From assembly GCA_016286035.1 (NCBI GenBank), contig JAEERY010000062.1, forward strand, positions 1 to 62,670: a DNA stretch of 62,670 nt, given 5' to 3'. The translations under genes and the position numbers were made by a program. Shown one piece after another: positions 47,140-59,094 of this stretch. Every line of letters begins with the position of its first letter. Position 1 is the first letter of the stretch. Source of the stretch: Lachnospiraceae bacterium (lineage in GTDB: Bacteria; Bacillota; Clostridia; Lachnospirales; Lachnospiraceae). A model generated the notes under the pieces. The model did not search any database. It had not been told where the DNA came from and saw nothing but the letters and a program-made list of their open reading frames with translations.

Positions 47140-50100
47140 CTACTGAGGCGAAAAGATGCTGTTCACCAGATACTCCTTGTATTTGTATTCTTCCAAAAGT
47201 CTTAGCGTCGTGTCATAGTCCTTTAAGGTATCGGCTATGGCTATGTCGTTGACCATTGAGTAACGGTCGTTTCCGGACTGAGATACCACGTCGTTCTTTC
47301 CGATCGTGCCGCTCTCCGTAAGCTGCGGACCGTTGTTGTATTCCTCTGTTATGTAGTACTGGAGCGACTCGCCGAAGAACAGGATGAACTGCTTGATATA
47401 TATGCCGCCGTACATGTCGGTCATATCCTCTCTGCTGTATCCTCCGATCTCATCGCTTTCCTTGTTTATCACATAGTTTATTACCGTCTTTACACCGCTC
47501 GTTCCCCTGTATTCAACAAGCACCTGGTTGGCCACCTGGGCAGCTCCCGTGGAGATGCTCTTAAACTTTCCGAAGAACGGGAAGACAATGCCTTTCTTTA
47601 CCATGAGCAGACGAATGAATTCCGATATGATGTCCGCCTTGTCCGTCGATGTATACTCATTCACATCCGCACTTATGTGCTGAAGCCATGCGAGCATGCA
47701 TATGTCGGTGATCGATCCATCCATGCGGTAGAGTCTTTCCATCTCATCAAAGATGTAATCGTCAACGAGACGGCCTCTTACGAAGTTCTCATGTGCGAAG
47801 TATGAAAGATATCTTAGCTCGACATCGTTCTTTGCACCGCCCTCTACATACTCCTTTAGAACGGTCGCTTCCTCGCCTATGTAGGCTCCGGTCACAAGAG
47901 TCTGTCTTATCATCTTCTCGCATACGGCATATGTGTCTATGTCAAATCCCGATGCGGCTTTCCAGATGTTTCTGAGCTTCTTTATCGGGCCGTTTGCAAA
48001 GCGTGCAAGATAGGTAAGACCCTGCTCGTCATACTTGCCTCTCTCAAAGGCGCTTATAAGGATATATGTGAGCTTTTCCTGCTCAAACATACCGTCTCGC
48101 TCCAAAATGCGTCCGGCGAGTCTGACCAAAAGTCTCGGCTCAAAGTTCTCGGTGCCAAAGTGCATGGTCACATCCACCGCATCATCGAGCCTGCCTCTGA
48201 TCAGCATTATCCTTACGACTTCGTTGTAATCCCTGTAGGATATATCCTCAAACTTAAGATCATCGAGTATCCTGTCGGATTCTTCGGTGTCATCCTTTTC
48301 CATGTAGTAGCGAAGGAGCGGCAGCCTTATCATGCCGCGGTATGAATCCCTTACCTCCTCGCTTGATTCGAGGTATTTGTATCTTTCAACGTTCTGATCT
48401 GTAACCAGTAGGAATTCCGGAGAGTCATCGCACAAAAAGAGATTGAAGAGCAGGCTGTCTGTTGCCCTGTTCTCCATCCTGTATATGACTTTTCCTGGAA
48501 CAAAGTACTTCTCGGTACTGTATTCCCTTGTCCTGTAGAACCTGTTGCCCTCTCTGTCTTCGAGTAAAACCGAGTAATCGTTTCCAAGAAGAGCAACGTA
48601 AGCCGTTCCGTTTGTAACGGGATAGCTCATCTGGCTCTTTAGTCTCTCATCCACAACGATGACGTTTGCTATGTCCTTGTCATTTATCGTTATGCAGTGC
48701 TTAAAGAGTATGCGGGAGAACTGGCGAAGATTATCCTCAGTCATCATATCCTCTAAAATTATCGTGCTGTAAAGATATGCGAGGTTTCTGTCTATCTTTC
48801 CGTCATAGAGCTGCTTTAATACAAACCTGTCTATGCTCTCCCTGTAGGTAAGATACATGTCATCGAGCTCTTCTCTGTTCTTTACGACATATGCGTAAAG
48901 GTATGCATTCTGTGCAGGGGGAAGCTGTGACTGATATGAGAAGTACATGAGCACCGGCTTCGGTATCGGATCGTCTTTTCTTAAGTCCATCGAGAGCATG
49001 TACGACTCGTAGAGTCTGGTAAGCGGGAAGTTTCTCTCAACGGCTTGACTGTACCACTTAAAGTACTCGGGACCCGTCTTTGAACCCTTCATAAGCTGAA
49101 CGCATACAGACTGGAGAGCTTCGTCGCTGTCGGTCTTCTCATAGATATATCTCATGATTCTTACAAGTCTGGGATCGTAATTCTTTTCCTTCATGACAAG
49201 GTATGCGATCTGTGACATCACATCCTCTGAAAGGATGGCCTCCCTTGCACCAAAGAGTAAGATCTGCTTTTCTTTTCTTCCGAGGTATCTTAAAAGAGAG
49301 GGACTCTCGCTTAAGGCTTTGATGGCTTCCAAATATATGACAGGACTTGTGCAGCCCATCTCTATCTGCTCAAGGACAAAGTTATATCTCTTGCTGGCAG
49401 ACTTTCTGAGATCATCGTCCAAACGTATCAGTATCCATGCGATACGCCAGTTTGTCCTGTCGTTCTCATAGATGCTCCTTATCTGATCGCTGACATCCCT
49501 TGAGTAGTAATCGTCCATGCTGTAGAGGGCATTTAAGTACAGATAGTAGCAGTACTCCTCATTGTTGGCATCCTCTATGCGGTTAACGACCTTTTTGTCA
49601 AGGATCCATTTGGCCTCATTGTATCTTTCCTGAATGATCAGGGAATGAGCCTGCATGAGGCTTAAGAAAAGTTCGTCATCTTCAGTCTTGACCACCGAAG
49701 TCAATAGTTCGTCGGTGAGCATCAGCCACTTGGACATGTTTATCCTTTTAACCGTGTAGTCCAGATAATGCCTGGTAAGCAGGTAAGTGGTCCTTTTTCT
49801 CTTCTTTCCGCTGACGCTCTTTCCCGTCAGATTGCTCTTTATGACATTGATGTCAACATACATCTCGTCATAGATGGATCTGATGATGATCCTTGAAGGA
49901 TTGATACCTCTGTGAACTCTCTCATGACGGATGCAGTAATCTATTATGCAGATATTGTTCTCGAAATCTTTATCCCTGATATGGGTCTTTGCGACATCTA
50001 TGCAGTCTCCTAAAACCTCTATCTCAAGGTAGGTATATCCCCAGCCGTTCTTCTCGATCTTTAAGCTCTTCCATACATCCTCTGTCGGATCATGAACGGT

Positions 50101-50685
50101 AACGGGATCCATATCGACTATGTAATCGATCTTCTGTTTTTTGTTGATGCCTATCAGGAATTCTTCAAGATTGAAATTCTTGTTGCCCTTGACCGTAAGC
50201 CCGCGGTAAAGATTCAGATACTCCGTATCGTTTCCGCTTATTATCTGGGCAAACTCGGGATGGTAGAATACCTCCACCGCCTCTTCCCATTTGCTCTTTG
50301 CAAGGTTTGTGAAATGAAATAGATTCTTTATGTTTCCAAGAGATGAATCAAGTATGTTTCTCTGCCTTATGGCAACAAAGGGCAGGACATACTCTCCCCT
50401 GTTTGTGACCACGAAGAGATTTCCCTTTAAGGCATCACCGGGATTCATGCCCGAAGGATCAAATACATAATCGATCCTAATCGTCGAACCGCTTATGTTT
50501 GGCTCACTTATACGCATACGAAAACTGGAAGAATAGATATATCCTTCCACGTTAAGCCCGTTTGGCTCTTCAAGCTCAAAAGACCCCTCTATGGGTTCAT
50601 CGGTCACCGTCTCAAGTTCCACCTTGGAAACGGAAAAAACAAGAGATCCTCTCTCCTGATCAAATTGGTAGGTTTCCTGCTCCAT
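47140..50685 (-). CDS. Giant scaffold-like protein (DUF5717-like)
   Basis: This protein of about 1181 aa has no signal peptide. An N-terminal region of beta-sandwich modules (about 1-310: GSLVFSVSKVELETVTDEPIEGSFELEE, DYVFDPSGMNPGDALKGNLFVVTNRGEYVLPFVAIRQ) is followed by a long helical-repeat region (about 330-900) and a final mixed domain. I recall it as DUF5717, found next to DUF5716 in Lachnospiraceae (not checked). ATG 50685 is preceded by AAAAGGAATCAGGG; an ATG ten codons upstream lacks a ribosome site. It is first of the four-gene cluster and 3 nt before the Hsp70-like gene. Confidence 0.78.
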   Translation of the reverse strand: MEQETYQFDQERGSLVFSVSKVELETVTDEPIEGSFELEEPNGLNVEGYIYSSSFRMRISEPNISGSTIRIDYVFDPSGMNPGDALKGNLFVVTNRGEYVLPFVAIRQRNILDSSLGNIKNLFHFTNLAKSKWEEAVEVFYHPEFAQIISGNDTEYLNLYRGLTVKGNKNFNLEEFLIGINKKQKIDYIVDMDPVTVHDPTEDVWKSLKIEKNGWGYTYLEIEVLGDCIDVAKTHIRDKDFENNICIIDYCIRHERVHRGINPSRIIIRSIYDEMYVDINVIKSNLTGKSVSGKKRKRTTYLLTRHYLDYTVKRINMSKWLMLTDELLTSVVKTEDDELFLSLMQAHSLIIQERYNEAKWILDKKVVNRIEDANNEEYCYYLYLNALYSMDDYYSRDVSDQIRSIYENDRTNWRIAWILIRLDDDLRKSASKRYNFVLEQIEMGCTSPVIYLEAIKALSESPSLLRYLGRKEKQILLFGAREAILSEDVMSQIAYLVMKEKNYDPRLVRIMRYIYEKTDSDEALQSVCVQLMKGSKTGPEYFKWYSQAVERNFPLTRLYESYMLSMDLRKDDPIPKPVLMYFSYQSQLPPAQNAYLYAYVVKNREELDDMYLTYRESIDRFVLKQLYDGKIDRNLAYLYSTIILEDMMTEDNLRQFSRILFKHCITINDKDIANVIVVDERLKSQMSYPVTNGTAYVALLGNDYSVLLEDREGNRFYRTREYSTEKYFVPGKVIYRMENRATDSLLFNLFLCDDSPEFLLVTDQNVERYKYLESSEEVRDSYRGMIRLPLLRYYMEKDDTEESDRILDDLKFEDISYRDYNEVVRIMLIRGRLDDAVDVTMHFGTENFEPRLLVRLAGRILERDGMFEQEKLTYILISAFERGKYDEQGLTYLARFANGPIKKLRNIWKAASGFDIDTYAVCEKMIRQTLVTGAYIGEEATVLKEYVEGGAKNDVELRYLSYFAHENFVRGRLVDDYIFDEMERLYRMDGSITDICMLAWLQHISADVNEYTSTDKADIISEFIRLLMVKKGIVFPFFGKFKSISTGAAQVANQVLVEYRGTSGVKTVINYVINKESDEIGGYSREDMTDMYGGIYIKQFILFFGESLQYYITEEYNNGPQLTESGTIGKNDVVSQSGNDRYSMVNDIAIADTLKDYDTTLRLLEEYKYKEYLVNSIFSPQ

Positions 50686-50719
50686 ACCCTGATTCCTTTT
50701 TGTAAAAACATACATAAAC

Positions 50720-53013: not shown

Positions 53014-54072
53014 TTATAAACTGTCAAAATGTTCGTCGAATATCTCGAAAAATCCCTTGCCCTGTGACAGTCCCGTCCTGTTTATCGAAACGCTCTCCCA
53101 CAGCTCATTGTTTAATTTTTTAGTGACTGAGGATACGAAATCCTCATATTCTCCGTTAAAGGCTTCCTGCTTTCTTCTGTCGACTATCTTAAGCTTGTTC
53201 TCCTCGGTTTCCTCCCTGTCAAAGGTGGAGATGCACTTTACGATGTAAAAGCCGTATTCCGTCTCTATGACATCGCTCAGTTCATCCTTTGAAAGATCAA
53301 ATGCGGCTACCTCGAGTGATATGTCGACATCGCCTTTTCCGAAAGATATGTTTATCTCATCAGAGTCGCTGTTTTCAAAAGCCAGGGTATCGAAATCCTC
53401 GCCGCTTTGGATCCTCTTTCTTAAATCCTCGGCTTTTTGTCTTGCCGCATCCTTATGGCTGTCGTCATAAGGTGTCAGACCTCCGTCATCGTCGTAGTTA
53501 AAGGTCTTTATATATATCTGCTTAACGGTAATGCTCCTGGCCTCGTCATCGCTTATCTCGGGATTGACATCTTTTATGATGCTGTCATAGACCTTCTTTG
53601 AAAGTGCATACTCCGTATAGAGCTCCTCTATGGTATCCTTCTTTATGCCAAGGCTCTTTATCTCATCCGACGTAAACGTATGATAATATTCCTCGGCTGC
53701 TTCCCTGACCTTTTTTGTCTCTTCATCGGAAAGATCAACTCCCCTGTCTTTAGCCATAAGGCAGACTGCCTTTACCTGGGAGATCCTGGCAAGAGCGACC
53801 TCTTTTACATTGTTCTCAAGGCTTACTCCGTCAATATTGGTATCCCAGATCTGCGAACCGTAGGCTTTCTCATACTGCCTTTGAAGATCCGCGATATAGA
53901 CCATGACCTCGTCAAGGCTACAGACACTGTCTCCCATCTTGAAGACTTCATCTTCGTTAAAGCCCGTGGTTATTATGACCTCTTTATCCTTTTGCATTCC
54001 GCAGCCGCATAGAACGGCCGGTATAAGGATCAACGCTATTAACTTGTATATCCGTTTAAGGATAAAGCGCAT
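53014..54072 (-). CDS. PrsA-like peptidylprolyl isomerase lipoprotein (foldase)
   Basis: This 352-aa lipoprotein has a signal sequence with lipobox LCGC (Cys24), a SurA/PrsA-type helical N-domain, and a parvulin-like domain from about 185 to 285 (ITVKQIYIKTF, KAEDLRKRIQSGEDFDTLAFENSDSD, VAAFDLSKDELSDVIETEYGFYIVKC). It should act outside the membrane to fold exported proteins. It starts 5 nt after the Cys-Ala-tail protein gene, suggesting it helps that protein or a product of the radical SAM enzyme to mature. Confidence 0.87.
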   Translation of the reverse strand: MRFILKRIYKLIALILIPAVLCGCGMQKDKEVIITTGFNEDEVFKMGDSVCSLDEVMVYIADLQRQYEKAYGSQIWDTNIDGVSLENNVKEVALARISQVKAVCLMAKDRGVDLSDEETKKVREAAEEYYHTFTSDEIKSLGIKKDTIEELYTEYALSKKVYDSIIKDVNPEISDDEARSITVKQIYIKTFNYDDDGGLTPYDDSHKDAARQKAEDLRKRIQSGEDFDTLAFENSDSDEINISFGKGDVDISLEVAAFDLSKDELSDVIETEYGFYIVKCISTFDREETEENKLKIVDRRKQEAFNGEYEDFVSSVTKKLNNELWESVSINRTGLSQGKGFFEIFDEHFDSL

Positions 54073-54077
54073 ACTTT

Positions 54078-55334
54078 TTACCTGTGTTTTTTAAGAGAAA
54101 GCTGTCTTAACTTAAGGTTGGTGTTATAGAAATCCTTTACCGTACATCCCGCTCTTCCGCCGCCGGCGCATGCACATGCACAGGCGCAGGCACATGCACA
54201 TGAGGAATGTGCACAGCTGTGCGAAGAACTTCTTGATGAGCCTGAGCTTCTTGATGATGAGCTCGTGCTTCTTGTAATCGGAACCTTGGGTCTTGTCGAA
54301 TGAACGCTTATGTATACGTTCGGGCTTGAGCCGTAATGATATACACCGGTGTTCTTATGCTTTCTTATCTCCTTATCCTTCTGAGCGTCTTTCTCGGTAA
54401 TGACTTCCTTGCTCTTTATCATGCTTGCTCCGCAGAACTCACATGTATCCCTTCTTTCCTTTAAGGGAGCACCGCAGTGAGGACATGACTCATAGTATGT
54501 TATCTTTTCTCTTGTTACGACCCTCTTGCCGTAAGAGAAGCCTCTTGCGCTGTCGTAGGCCTTCTTTATCAGAAGGGCGATAATGATAAACGGCCAGCAG
54601 CTGGTCAGTATGAATACGAACATTGCGATGGTTATCTCTGCACCCATGGAAAGACCATCGTCATCGCCTCCTAAGCTTTTTTCCTGTCCCACCTGATTGA
54701 ACTTCGTCTCGTCAAATTGAAATGCATCATTTGGATAGGTCACGGTAACGCTGAACCGTCCTCTGGGATTCAGCGAGGTATTCCATGTGATGTAACCGTC
54801 CTCTATAGCTCCTTCGGGAGTAAAGCTTTCAACGTTTTCGCCGTTCCACTTTATAACAAGTTCATCTACCGCTATCTCGTCAAACCAGCCGGGGGTAAAT
54901 CCGTACTGGGTAAAGCCTTCCTCAAACTTATTCATCTCATACATGTAATCCTGGGTGAAGGAAAAATCAAAGCTTATCACTTCCCCCTCATAATATGATC
55001 TGTCAAAGTCTACTCTTATTAAAACGTCTCCGCCCTTTTTGCTTAAGCCTATCCTCTTAATGGTATCGGACTTGGCTTCGATATCCGTACAGTGTGAATT
55101 GGGTATACCTATCTCGACCCATGAGACGGGGCCTAAACTTCCGCCCGACTGAAGGACCTTCCAGTCGATATGATAGTTCATATCAAGGGTGGCATCCTCA
55201 TTGACGTCAACCGTTATCGTATAGTTTAATATCTCGTCTGTCGCTCCTCCCGCATATGAAACGCTCTTTGCAGACAGGATGACAGAAACAATAAAGACGA
55301 GTGACATTAAAAGTAATAAAGCTCTCTTACGCAT
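54078..55334 (-). CDS. Membrane zinc-ribbon protein with C-terminal Cys-Ala alternating tail
   Basis: This 418-aa protein has a signal peptide (RKRALLLLMSLVFIVSVIL), a DUF2207-like extracytoplasmic beta domain (about 35-225), a membrane segment (about 240-263) and a cytoplasmic zinc ribbon (CPHC-x10-CEFC). A Ser-rich stretch and a tail with six alternating Cys-Ala pairs (residues 379-390) then lead to GGGRAGC. Codons in the tail alternate TGT/TGC and GCA/GCC, so the pattern is kept at protein level. ATG 55334 has AAGGAGG upstream and overlaps the radical SAM stop by 8 nt. The tail is a likely substrate of that enzyme. Confidence 0.82.
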   Translation of the reverse strand: MRKRALLLLMSLVFIVSVILSAKSVSYAGGATDEILNYTITVDVNEDATLDMNYHIDWKVLQSGGSLGPVSWVEIGIPNSHCTDIEAKSDTIKRIGLSKKGGDVLIRVDFDRSYYEGEVISFDFSFTQDYMYEMNKFEEGFTQYGFTPGWFDEIAVDELVIKWNGENVESFTPEGAIEDGYITWNTSLNPRGRFSVTVTYPNDAFQFDETKFNQVGQEKSLGGDDDGLSMGAEITIAMFVFILTSCWPFIIIALLIKKAYDSARGFSYGKRVVTREKITYYESCPHCGAPLKERRDTCEFCGASMIKSKEVITEKDAQKDKEIRKHKNTGVYHYGSSPNVYISVHSTRPKVPITRSTSSSSRSSGSSRSSSHSCAHSSCACACACACACAGGGRAGCTVKDFYNTNLKLRQLSLKKHR

Positions 55335-56715
55335 TTTTCTCCTCCTTATCGTTTGTCTTTCTAAGCGGGCACACACCCAGTGTCTTTGCAGAGAAATCTC
55401 TTCTTTCTTTGCATGCCTCACTGTTCCACATCTTATCCCAGTCATCGTTTAGCATGCTTCCGTAGGTTTCGCCTGAAAGCCAGCTCTGGCAGGGAACAAG
55501 ATCTCCGCTAGGGGTAACTGCCATGTTGCTTAAACATGCTCCGCAGCTTGGGGTCTGTATTCCGAGTTCCTTGCAGAACTCATCCTCAACCCAGCCGGGT
55601 GAAGTAAAGCTTATCTCCATGCCGTTTGAATAGCAGTATTCAACAGCTTCCTTTAATACCTTCTTTATCTCATCCTTTGAAAGCTGAAGATCTTCCGAAT
55701 CTTTTAGAGTTGCATTGCCCGTTGTTATAAGGCCTGAGCATGTGACATACAATACTCCGAGTCCGTGCAAAAATTCAAGTGTCTTAAGATAGTCTTTGTT
55801 AAGAGTGCAAAGCGGTGTGTTAATGCTTATGTTAAGACCTGTTTCAATTGCATTCTTTATGCCGTTAACCGTATCGTTATATCCCTTTGTGCCGACCAGT
55901 TTGTCATGTATATCTTCATCACATGAATAGAAGGTTATCTGCATGCTGTCAAGAGATGCCTCTTTAAGCTTTTCGCAAAACTCTTTTGTTAGTTTTCTTC
56001 CGTTTGTGTTGAGTCTTGTTATGAACCATCTTGAATAGTCTATAAGATCTATAAGATCATCTCTCATGGTAGGTTCTCCTCCCGTGAAGGTCACCTGGGG
56101 GATACCTGCCTTTCTGCAGTTGTCTATGATCTTTTTCCAGTCATCGCCTGAAAGCTCGCTCTGTCCGGCAAGCTCCTGACCTGCGGCATAGCAGTGAACA
56201 CACTGCTGGTTGCAGTGCCATTTGTTATCCTTTGTCATTGAGCTTACTAAAAGATCCATCCTGTGAGGTGCTCTCATGTAAAGAGCATAATCACCAAGAG
56301 AGATGTAATCTATCTCGACATCGCTCTTTTCGCCGTAGGCTACCTGCTTGAAGCTGTTCATCATCTCGTAAAGATCGCTCTTTATGAGTTTTTTGCTGAG
56401 AAGAGGATAGACCTTTCTTACACCCTTTACGGTGTTATTGACCATCGTATCTACTTCCTTATCGGTAACTTCTCTTCCTGCGTATTTATTTACTTCCTTA
56501 ATAAACTCGCATAACAGTATTGACCATGATACGTTTACGGGTATCACGTCCTGACCGTTTATTATGACTACGCTTGCTTCCACATCGTCACCGTCGCATT
56601 TGGGCGGGATCATATGTATCCTTACGACACCGGGTCCCTCGGGATTAAGTGTGGTATGCAGAGTCTCTGTGAAGTTTTCGCTCGCGTATTTCTTTATCCT
56701 TTTTGAAACACTCAT
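55327..56715 (-). CDS. Radical SAM/SPASM peptide-modifying enzyme
   Basis: In this 462-aa protein, residues about 46-128 resemble a PqqD-like peptide-recognition element (VVIINGQDVIPVNVSWSILLCEFI). The radical SAM core follows with CxxxCxxC in HCNQQCVHC (Cys168, 172, 175) and GGEPTMRDD. The C-terminus is a SPASM-type domain (CGACLSNMAVTPSGDLVPCQSW, then C and CPL). Such enzymes make thioether or C-C links in peptide substrates. ATG 56715 is used because AAAGG lies 7 nt upstream, and only 1 nt before the alternative 56721. Direct translational coupling to the Cys-Ala-tail protein points to it as the substrate. Confidence 0.88.
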   Translation of the reverse strand: MSVSKRIKKYASENFTETLHTTLNPEGPGVVRIHMIPPKCDGDDVEASVVIINGQDVIPVNVSWSILLCEFIKEVNKYAGREVTDKEVDTMVNNTVKGVRKVYPLLSKKLIKSDLYEMMNSFKQVAYGEKSDVEIDYISLGDYALYMRAPHRMDLLVSSMTKDNKWHCNQQCVHCYAAGQELAGQSELSGDDWKKIIDNCRKAGIPQVTFTGGEPTMRDDLIDLIDYSRWFITRLNTNGRKLTKEFCEKLKEASLDSMQITFYSCDEDIHDKLVGTKGYNDTVNGIKNAIETGLNISINTPLCTLNKDYLKTLEFLHGLGVLYVTCSGLITTGNATLKDSEDLQLSKDEIKKVLKEAVEYCYSNGMEISFTSPGWVEDEFCKELGIQTPSCGACLSNMAVTPSGDLVPCQSWLSGETYGSMLNDDWDKMWNSEACKERRDFSAKTLGVCPLRKTNDKEEKNA

Positions 56716-56782: not shown

Positions 56783-57355
56783 TTACCCGATAGCATATCC
56801 TACTTCGAATGCCTCGATATTCTTTGCTACTGTCTTTGGAGGAACAGTGCTCTCTATGACTTTTATCCAGTCCTCTTTTGCAAAGGACATATGCTTTGCT
56901 GCAGCTCCCAAAACTATAACGTTAAAGGATCTGGGTGAGCCTATCTCCTTGCTCTTGTTTGTAGCATCTACAACAAGAGTCTTTCTTGCTGCGCTTAAAG
57001 TCTCGATGATGCCTTCGGGATAGGTTGCCTGTCCCGTAACGACAGTGATGGGATCCATCCTTAAGTCGTTTACTATGATGACACCGTCCTTTTTAACAAA
57101 GTGAAGATAACGCATTGCTTCAAGCTTCTCAAAAGCTATAAGGACATCTACCTGACCCTCTTCCACTATGGGCTCTGCGACCTTTTCACCGTATCTTACA
57201 TATGTTACAACGCTTCCGCCTCTCTGAGCCATACCGTGGACTTCCGAGAGCTTAACGTCATATCCTGCATTTGTTGCCATCTTTCCGAGTATGCGGCTGG
57301 TAAGGAGGGTTCCCTGACCACCGACACCCACTATCATGATATTTGTCGTTGCCAT
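56783..57355 (-). CDS. iorB: Indolepyruvate oxidoreductase subunit beta
   Basis: This 190-aa gamma-type 2-oxoacid oxidoreductase subunit has IMIVGVGGQGTLLTSRILGKMA at its N-terminus. With IorA it converts aryl pyruvates (indolepyruvate, phenylpyruvate) to aryl-acetyl-CoA with ferredoxin. ATG 57355 overlaps the iorA stop by one base (TAATG) and has AAAGGAGG upstream. Confidence 0.93.
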   Translation of the reverse strand: MATTNIMIVGVGGQGTLLTSRILGKMATNAGYDVKLSEVHGMAQRGGSVVTYVRYGEKVAEPIVEEGQVDVLIAFEKLEAMRYLHFVKKDGVIIVNDLRMDPITVVTGQATYPEGIIETLSAARKTLVVDATNKSKEIGSPRSFNVIVLGAAAKHMSFAKEDWIKVIESTVPPKTVAKNIEAFEVGYAIG

Positions 57356-59094
57356 TATTTTGCCTCCTTTGTTATCGCACCGAACTTGCAAAGCTGCATG
57401 CACAGTCCGCAGGCGTTACACATTGTCTCGTCTATGCTGATCGTACCGTCCTCGTTTCTTGTAAGTGCGGGACATCCGGGCTTAAGGCAGGCGCCGCACT
57501 TCTTGCACTTATCCGATACGGGTACGCATTTATCCGGGAATACATTGCTCTTTAAGAGTACGCAGGGTGATTTTGTGATGATAACCGATACCTCATCCCT
57601 TGCGACCTCTCTCTTTATGGTCTCTTCCAAAAGAGGAAGATCAAAGGCATTTACCTCATATACATGCTCAACGCCAAGGCTCTTGCAAAGCTCTGTCAAG
57701 TTTACCGCATGTGTGGGCTCGCCCTGAAGGGTCTTGCCGGTAGCGGCATGATCCTGGTGACCGGTCATACCGGTTATCGAGTTATCAAGTATGATGACCG
57801 TTCCGGTTGCCTTGTTGTATACCATGTTCATAAGGGAATTTACACCCGTATGAAGGAAGGTCGAATCACCGATGACTGCAACCCAGTTCTTTATATAATC
57901 CTTGCCCTTTGCCTTTTCCATACCGTGAAGGCTTGAGATGCTCGCACCCATACAGATCGATACGTCAACAACGCTTAAGGGAGCGAGTGCACCCAAAGTG
58001 TAGCATCCTATATCGCCTGCACCGTGGATCTTTAATCTGTTAAGGACTGTATATACGCTTCTGTGAGGACATCCGGGACACAGTATCGGAGGACGTGCGG
58101 GCACATCCTTCTTCTCATCAAGATCAAGGTCCATGTTAAGGAGTTTTTCTCTTAACATATTTGCGGAATACTCACCCTGTCTGGTAAAGAGTTCCTTTCC
58201 TTCGCACTTGATGCCCCAGCTCTTTGCCTGCTCTTCTATAACCGGCTCGAGTTCCTCAAAGATTATGAGTCTGTCTACCTTTTTAGCAAAGTCTTCTATC
58301 ATCTTTTTAGGAAGAGGATTTACAAGGCCAAGCTTAAGTACGCTTGCCTCGGGAAATACTTCCTTTACATACTGATAAGCGATACCGGCTGTGATAAAGC
58401 CTATCTTTGTATCACCCATCTCAACTCTGTTGATCGGCATGTTCTCGCCGTCTGCTATCATGTCGTTTAAGCGCTTCTCAACATAGACATGACGCTTTAT
58501 TGCCATTGCAGGCATCATTACATTCTTCTGTATGTTCTTTGTATATTCGACATCCTCGGGCTCGAATCTTTCCTCGAGTGAAACAATACCCTGGCTGTGT
58601 GCCAGTCTTGTCGTTGTTCTTAAGATAACGGGGGTGTCATACTTCTCCGAAAGATCAAAGGCATACTTCATGAAGTCCTTTGCTTCCTGTGAATCGGAGG
58701 GTTCTACAACGGGTACCATGCTGGCACGGCCTATCATACGTGTATCCTGCTCGTTCTGTGAGCTGTACATGCCCGGATCGTCCGCAACAACTACTACCAT
58801 TCCTCCCTGAACACCTATATAGCTCATGGTGTAGAGGGGATCACTTGCCACGTTAAGTCCCACATGCTTCATGCATGCCATGCTCCTTACACCTGCTATG
58901 GCTGCTCCGCTGGCAACCTCAACTGCCACCTTCTCATTGGGTGACCACTCACAATAGATCTCTTTATACTGTACGAGATTTTCGCTGATCTCGGTACTGG
59001 GTGTTCCGGGATATGCAGCCGATACCTTGACGCCGGCCTCATATGCTCCGCGGGCTATAGCCTCATTTCCCAGCATAATCATGTGCTCTGCCAT
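57355..59094 (-). CDS. iorA: Indolepyruvate ferredoxin oxidoreductase subunit alpha
   Basis: This 579-aa protein has an N-terminal pyruvate oxidoreductase domain (LGNEAIARGAYEAGVKVSAAYPGTPSTEI). Its thiamine diphosphate domain contains CPGCPHRSVY, GDIGCYTLG, GDSTFLHTG and DNSITGMTGHQDH. The C-terminal ferredoxin-like part has CKKCGACLKPGCPAL and CNACGLCMQLC for iron-sulfur clusters. It supports growth on aromatic amino acids or reductive uptake of aryl acids. A 5-5-5 hairpin lies just before its ribosome site. Confidence 0.95.
   Translation of the reverse strand: MAEHMIMLGNEAIARGAYEAGVKVSAAYPGTPSTEISENLVQYKEIYCEWSPNEKVAVEVASGAAIAGVRSMACMKHVGLNVASDPLYTMSYIGVQGGMVVVVADDPGMYSSQNEQDTRMIGRASMVPVVEPSDSQEAKDFMKYAFDLSEKYDTPVILRTTTRLAHSQGIVSLEERFEPEDVEYTKNIQKNVMMPAMAIKRHVYVEKRLNDMIADGENMPINRVEMGDTKIGFITAGIAYQYVKEVFPEASVLKLGLVNPLPKKMIEDFAKKVDRLIIFEELEPVIEEQAKSWGIKCEGKELFTRQGEYSANMLREKLLNMDLDLDEKKDVPARPPILCPGCPHRSVYTVLNRLKIHGAGDIGCYTLGALAPLSVVDVSICMGASISSLHGMEKAKGKDYIKNWVAVIGDSTFLHTGVNSLMNMVYNKATGTVIILDNSITGMTGHQDHAATGKTLQGEPTHAVNLTELCKSLGVEHVYEVNAFDLPLLEETIKREVARDEVSVIITKSPCVLLKSNVFPDKCVPVSDKCKKCGACLKPGCPALTRNEDGTISIDETMCNACGLCMQLCKFGAITKEAK

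Follow-up and report, generated by a model that had tools for sequence, protein, structure and literature searches.

Radical S-adenosylmethionine (SAM) enzymes that combine an RRE with a SPASM domain act mostly on short, leader-bearing peptides (PMC8326336; here and below, PMC numbers refer to excerpts of the papers). In this work, we analyzed a stretch of 62,670 nucleotides from a Lachnospiraceae bacterium (the window, positions 1 to 62,670 of contig JAEERY010000062.1, assembly GCA_016286035.1), in which the gene of a radical SAM/SPASM-like enzyme is paired with that of a membrane protein carrying an alternating Cys-Ala tail. This pair belongs with the radical SAM peptide maturases, its proposed substrate being unusual, and it is unnamed both in the family collections and in the open-access literature that we searched. 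Among the open-access papers listed, none deals with this pair according to its title or the start of its abstract, in a search that covered neither subscription papers nor preprints. In place of a short leader-bearing precursor peptide, the partner is a membrane protein of 300 to 460 amino acids across relatives, with the repeat near its C-terminus.

Among the closest known systems, SkfB with its substrate SkfA, the sactipeptide sporulation killing factor, has a radical SAM barrel in common with the window enzyme, as well as an auxiliary-cluster domain that is short, and its RRE corresponds to a putative one there. SkfB is the best match among solved structures in the PDB, both by Foldseek and by family profile (E 3.6e-21 over positions 166–433, a span that leaves the N-terminal domain uncovered). 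It is a Cys-to-C-alpha thioether synthase that takes Ala in place of Met12 as acceptor and abstracts the C-alpha hydrogen of this Ala (PMC8326336). SkfA differs from the partner described here, as it is a short peptide with one thioether, in contrast to a membrane protein with a repeat on its C-terminal side and no recurring third gene among the loci compared.

Ruminococcin C, made by RumMC1 and RumMC2, likewise comes from a gut Clostridia host (Ruminococcus gnavus) and includes a Cys-Ala thioether, between Cys5 and Ala12 of ruminococcin C1 (PMC8172795). Unlike the membrane protein, it is an antimicrobial peptide, short and folded as a double hairpin, and each of its four links goes to a different residue (PMC8172795, PMC8326336). 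CteB and the ranthipeptide maturases resemble the window enzyme in being SPASM radical SAM enzymes with an RRE, putative in the window enzyme, and CteB appears at Foldseek ranks 7, 9 and 11. For the ranthipeptide enzyme PapB, however, the links run from Cys to Asp or Glu (PMC9413430), whereas the repeat here has Ala. TvgB resembles our case in that a radical SAM enzyme works on a repeated motif of TvgA, TVGG, yet it forms cyclopropylglycine in a peptide and its motif is without Cys (PMC9062424).

Pairing of the enzyme and tail genes

In the window, three genes follow each other on the minus strand. The enzyme and membrane-protein genes overlap by 8 nt (55327–55334), and the gene of a parvulin-type peptidyl-prolyl isomerase (PPIase) comes after a 5-nt gap (54073–54077), a layout that the preliminary description had given correctly. 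The pair of enzyme and membrane protein is real, the triplet with the PPIase is not.

The pairing of the two genes is strongly supported from both sides. Starting from the tail, a scan of GTDB contigs for CACACAxxG(R/S)AGC gave at least 119 stretches, reduced to 80 loci with 81 tail open reading frames (ORFs). These are not 80 independent genomes: L069 and L073 lie on one contig, and some records are shared with our other genome searches (L110/G053, L111/G075, L128/G149, L067/G894). Adjacency was counted for tail ORFs whose upstream flank covers 300 bases or more, which applies to 66. An enzyme adjoins 65 of these 66 among the pattern-scan loci listed, upstream on the same strand in 62 cases and within 200 nt in 59. 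Same-strand pairs (n = 50) are closely spaced, with 32 overlaps and gaps from −17 to +176 nt. For the 15 ORFs cut by a locus edge, which were counted separately, the enzyme is present in 14 of the 15 genomes, with a tail ORF in the flank for 11 of those 14.

The arrangement itself varies. In L059, the enzyme lies directly downstream of the tail gene, and the second tail copy of L058 and the tail of L073 are divergent from an enzyme, of which L073 shows no more than 54 residues where the locus ends. In L052 and L084, 693 and 978 nt separate the tail ORF from the enzyme; this gap is occupied by a body match in a different frame, so that the tail gene reads as broken. L108 was dropped as an exception; a start-extended ORF had hidden its adjacent enzyme, and it is counted as the 62nd upstream case. 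In L059:6577-7999 and L230:1-147, the tail gene precedes the enzyme gene, opposite to the usual order. L058:2001-6120 contains one enzyme flanked by two tail genes, one of them divergent, and L069 and L073 on their single contig look similar.

A search with the membrane protein gave the same picture. Among 150 sampled genomes from this family, 15, our own included, match it at E ≤1e-5. Twelve of the other 14 carry the tail, all with a directly adjacent enzyme homologue (51–68% identity); in the remaining two, one of them matched through the zinc ribbon only, the stretch around the match contains neither tail nor enzyme. There is one true tail-less homologue of the body (G082, 23% identity over 261 columns), and both the enzyme and the tail pattern are missing from its genome. 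A second candidate of this type (L051/G061) was dropped, since it is a TPM-domain protein matched via the zinc ribbon.

Starting from the enzyme alone, searches at E ≤1e-40 in the class and at E ≤1e-25 in the order found it in 11 of 391 and 12 of 392 genomes, respectively, our own counted in each. Leaving out the latter and two weak matches, 18 distinct genomes with close homologues (46–66% identity) remain. All 18 have the tail pattern, adjacent in 15, separated by inserted ORFs in one and on another contig in two. In the separated case (G468, L183:4660-8950), the tail ORF is about 2.3 kb from the enzyme, and the ORFs in between look like what we take to be transposase genes. The tail protein of G347 is encoded on a different contig from the enzyme. 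In G385, the tail pattern lies on a contig apart from the enzyme, where no ORF was read out, and a partner-like ORF after the enzyme reaches the contig end before a tail could appear. The flanks of the two weak enzyme homologues (31% and 35% identity) contain no tail.

These counts agree with the initial proposal of a radical SAM enzyme acting on the tail of a large membrane protein. Tails that usually occur without a radical SAM gene nearby had been named as the finding that would speak against it, and the opposite was observed.

Sequence and conservation of the tail

The window tail consists of six Cys-Ala pairs (C379–A390) followed by GGGRAGC. Four consecutive Cys-Ala codon pairs occur at a single site in the 3.0-Mb genome and a reversed-pattern control at none, hence the tail is not a chance feature. 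Its codons are mixed (TGT/TGC and GCA/GCC), and across tails, each of the last four repeat units occurs with every one of the four codons for Ala and with either of the two for Cys. We can rule out DNA slippage as origin of the repeat, as codons vary synonymously within and between genes. Tails contain up to seven Cys-Ala units.

The protein does not end at GGGRAGC, as first described, and runs on for 21 residues that include a conserved S/T-x-K-D-F-Y stretch; the six pairs and a zinc ribbon, the latter as a sub-threshold Pfam match, were described correctly. In 96 distinct tails, GC is followed by S/T in all 96 and by K two residues on in all 96, with D next in 83, F in 83 and Y/F in 90. As the S/T and K positions lie outside the DNA search pattern, they were not selected by it. 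Exceptions outside those 96 tails are found in G459 and G468, which read SERGYQ. These two tails (G468 at L183:4660-8950) run on as GGRVGCSERGYQ and not with the usual S-x-K-DFY.

For comparisons of conservation, we aligned full-length sequences with a clear match to the window protein and dropped identical ones, which reduced enzymes from 57 to 55 and tail proteins from 73 to 71. The sets A1 and A2 (54 and 58 sequences) are a selection out of these, together with the window. Averaged over pairs from 50 loci, enzymes are 55% identical, bodies 34% and tail cores (residues 383–404) 83%, most of these loci having been found with a pattern that fixes part of that core. Four congeners that were found by the whole protein and not by the pattern have 51–78% identity in the body and 95–97% in the tail stretch. 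Tails found via the enzyme were not tail-selected either, as every ORF with C.C.C.C near the enzyme was considered. All 17 of them (16 loci) contain CACACA, and no residue other than Ala separates the Cys of the alternating run; G-G-R-(A/V)-G-C follows in 16, and the ORF of L174 leaves its locus first. Together with the synonymous codons, the higher conservation of the tail core than of the bodies supports the view that the tail is kept by selection, as had been suggested from the window alone.

All 72 testable tail ORFs of the pattern-scan loci carry the same kind of body, and none of them has the tail on an unrelated body; the remaining nine ORFs are too short or cut. A natural variant with Tyr for one Cys is found in a tandem second tail copy, CACACAYACACA (L176/L185). 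In L185:3782-5709, one enzyme has two tandem tail genes upstream, the second being this Tyr variant.

Proposed modification and its alternatives

The enzyme model (AlphaFold2, mean pLDDT, i.e., predicted local distance difference test, 90.4) resembles RRE-bearing peptide maturases. Residues 19–126 form four strands and then three helices, to be compared with the winged helix of three strands and three helices of an RRE, and are followed by the barrel and a short C-terminal cluster domain. SkfB and SuiB align over 437–481 columns, nearly the whole length. Pfam PF04055 and SPASM, both above cut-off in the window enzyme, are found in each of the 54 aligned enzymes including it. The PqqD-like N-terminus that had been described was not recovered, as Pfam gave no PqqD family match for the window enzyme or the 54 aligned sequences. 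Auxiliary Cys are kept to different degrees in 56 sequences, window included (C391 in 56, C394 in 48, C409 in 56, C435 in 51 and C449 in 54). With these five Cys positions the domain is short, and a full SPASM domain has seven or eight (PMC10352776).

On the pair, Pfam recognizes general domains only. For the window enzyme, no model reaches its cut-off among the 25 NCBIfam models listed, and the sactipeptide maturase models stay far below (SkfB 48.2 of 300 bits, StsB 48.1 of 625 bits). The ACGX-system model TIGR04340 matches 39 of 54 relatives at E ≤1e-10 (best 8.4e-17), amid many general radical SAM models, and is not among the 25 listed for the window enzyme.

The model of the membrane protein (mean pLDDT 82.8, predicted TM-score 0.53) has the order hydrophobic N-terminus, beta domain, one transmembrane helix, zinc ribbon and disordered tail, with pLDDT below 50 at residues 357–402, covering the tail. 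By a simple hydropathy cut-off, 68 of 71 relatives have the N-terminal hydrophobic stretch. This layout, with the beta domain outside, would place the tail in the cytosol together with the enzyme, a location that is predicted from the model. The zinc ribbon scores 21.8 bits in the window protein (Pfam gathering score 25) and is optional, because its Cys pairs are kept in 45 of 72 sequences. Foldseek matches of the beta domain are oligosaccharyltransferase-complex chains, presumably ribophorin I/OST1, and M1-type zinc peptidases, at a whole-query TM-score of about 0.3. DUF2207 membrane proteins (PF09972) have a weak similarity in the N-terminal domain, seen for 8 of 58 sequences at E values down to 1.1e-4; the window protein differs in remaining below the gathering score (14 bits against 24.4). 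NCBIfam gave nothing above cut-off for the membrane protein. Positions of all features are given in Table 1.

Table 1. Features of the enzyme, its partner and the adjacent PPIase gene in the window
Feature	Position	Strand	Basis
Radical SAM/SPASM-like enzyme P0002, 462 aa	55327..56715	minus	Pfam Radical_SAM 77.9 bits, SPASM 23.5 bits; Foldseek best SkfB, SuiB, CteB
RRE-like N-terminal domain, residues 19–126, proposed substrate-docking module	56338..56661	minus	AlphaFold2 model, block pLDDT 73–97
CX3CX2C radical SAM cluster motif C168, C172, C175	56191..56214	minus	kept in 56/56, window included
Short SPASM/twitch-like C-terminal cluster domain C391, C394, C409, C435, C449	55369..55545	minus	Cys conservation
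Membrane protein with Cys-Ala tail P0001, 418 aa, proposed substrate	54078..55334	minus	tail-bearing homologues adjoin enzyme
N-terminal hydrophobic helix, signal peptide or signal anchor, residues 2–23	55266..55331	minus	model; hydropathy
Predicted extracytoplasmic beta domain, residues 33–201	54732..55238	minus	model; Foldseek; weak DUF2207
Transmembrane helix, residues 230–263	54546..54647	minus	model; hydrophobic stretch in 71/71 relatives
Zinc-ribbon Cys pairs C284, C287, C298, C301	54432..54485	minus	kept in 45/72 sequences
Cys-Ala tail CAHSSCACACACACACAGGGRAGC, residues 374–397	54144..54215	minus	sequence, conservation, synonymous codons
Start of conserved post-tail stretch S/T-x-K-D-F-Y, residues 398–404, proposed follower/docking motif	54123..54143	minus	S/T and K in 96/96 tails
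Parvulin-type PPIase gene P0003, local neighbour outside the conserved unit	53014..54072	minus	Pfam Rotamase families

We propose a dedicated two-gene modification system in which the enzyme installs Cys-Ala thioethers in the cytosolic tail of a membrane protein that is retained, and assign this a probability of roughly 55%. The analyses above show the pairing of the genes, the conservation of the tail and the domains of the models; from them we infer the tail as substrate, its topology, the thioether bond, the docking site and the purpose of the modified tail. Once inserted, the membrane protein would have its beta domain on the outer side and the Cys-Ala tail on the side of the cytosol. There, the enzyme may dock on the tail, perhaps with the RRE-like domain gripping the conserved post-tail stretch as a follower. 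A 5'-deoxyadenosyl radical would then take hydrogen from a repeat Ala, and Cys thiols would close on Ala to give Cys-Ala thioethers, most likely from S to C-alpha with two hydrogens lost per link. This chemistry is suggested by the SkfB-like fold and profile and by the published Cys-Ala precedents. After modification, the tail would probably stay on the protein, as the unit showed no recurring protease or exporter family, and might serve as a rigid, oxidation-proof cytosolic module. Taken in full, namely a ladder of Cys-Ala thioethers that is follower-guided and not leader-guided and remains in place as a lasting functional part, this picture is tentative and falls somewhat short of even odds.

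Several points weigh against the thioether proposal. One tail (L080) has no enzyme homologue in its genome G150, although this tail gene also lacks the usual N-terminal part, and the genome of L086 (G913) is without an enzyme homologue as well. Conservation of the CACACAxxG(R/S)AGC positions is partly by construction, because the pattern chose most tail loci. Support for a cytosolic tail from the positive-inside rule is limited to 51 of 71 relatives, in which K/R are commoner after the transmembrane helix than before. The RRE is visible in the model alone, with one strand beyond the published three, and the Foldseek fits are loose (query TM-score 0.46–0.57, root mean square deviation 8–16 for the seven best). 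AlbA refuses Ala at acceptor sites (PMC8172795). Moreover, C303, which lies outside the cluster motifs and is invariant in 56 of 56 enzymes, is compatible with other chemistry such as epimerisation.

The last point leads to the strongest competitor, which we consider unlikely: the enzyme might modify the tail by other radical chemistry, i.e., epimerisation of Ala to D-Ala with an enzyme Cys as hydrogen donor, a C-beta (lanthionine-like) thioether or another change of Cys or Ala. It would draw on the same gene-pairing evidence, and C303 could be the donor, as epimerases rely on a critical Cys (PMC8326336). Against this, the nearest fold and profile are those of SkfB and not of an epimerase, with EpeE (8ai3) at Foldseek rank 50, and epimerisation alone would have no need for Cys at every second position.

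A cytosolic tail that is left unmodified and serves as a module for binding metal or Fe-S clusters (electron wire, cluster donor or redox sensor), working with the enzyme while the enzyme's target lies elsewhere, is distinctly improbable. The high density of Cys and the additional zinc ribbon in 45 of 72 members would suit such a module. However, metal binding should call for less strictness than is seen in the intervening Ala and in the GGGRAGC context, and Ala kept strictly at alternate positions is more in line with acceptor residues. A third gene family beside the pair never exceeds 9 of 92 loci, in mixed positions, among ORFs of at least 90 amino acids, a range that leaves very short peptide genes out of scope.

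Enzyme and tail could also have unrelated roles and be linked by operon inheritance only, which we regard as very improbable. Distances of enzymes and bodies correlate (Spearman 0.85), as under shared descent alone, but the pair persists though gene orders (upstream, downstream, divergent, duplicated tails) and flanks change, and the tail-less homologue is without enzyme, albeit in a single case.

If the proposal of a modified tail is true, the pair constitutes a protein modification system and not a peptide natural product, present in gut and rumen Clostridia, in Mollicutes and possibly in Actinomycetota. An enzyme of this architecture is tied here, with hardly an exception, to one membrane-protein site. 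Confirmation of the modification would extend radical SAM crosslinking to the maturation of full-size membrane proteins and provide a compact repeat substrate for studying one enzyme on up to seven identical Cys-Ala units. It would furthermore give a role to an enzyme family that meets no curated model and has members in cultured gut bacteria.

Neighbouring genes and distribution

The preliminary description had counted a PrsA-like foldase as third member of the unit. The PPIase gene adjoins the pair in the window and in four of nine congeners, where the surrounding gene order is kept; it is absent beside the pair in four others, and the fifth (L209) ends at a contig edge. No PPIase match was found at the 92 other loci; these contain 93 tail ORFs, of which 77 have a downstream flank of 1,100 bases or more. 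With four of eight judgeable congeners and none of 92 other loci, the PPIase is hence a neighbour and not a part, and we rejected it as a unit member. A three-gene system in which the foldase folds the tail protein is largely refuted, the more so as an exported parvulin would sit outside while the tail is predicted to be cytosolic, which leaves the foldase part unsupported.

Two genes directly upstream of the enzyme (window 56783–59094) encode POR, TPP-enzyme and ferredoxin domains and adjoin the pair in four congeners too; we take them to be subunits of an indolepyruvate ferredoxin oxidoreductase. Further away, window 47140–50715 encodes a DUF5717 protein of 1191 amino acids, of unknown function.

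Among the loci listed, pairs carry the labels Lachnospiraceae, Oscillospiraceae, Gemmiger, Fournierella, Saccharofermentans, Acholeplasmatales, Anaeroplasma, Bacilli and Eggerthellaceae. The spread is patchy, with 12 of 149 other family genomes sampled and 9 of 19 other congeners. Cultured carriers include Gemmiger formicilis ATCC 27749, in which the two genes are adjacent, and Hungatella hathewayi WAL-18680. Two Eggerthellaceae contigs from metagenome-assembled genomes (L084 and L116, G+C of 0.585 and 0.609 over the stretch analysed) have enzymes that nest within the Lachnospiraceae part of the tree, as either transfer or a binning error would give. In the same tree, Mollicutes-labelled enzymes group with L083 and L085.

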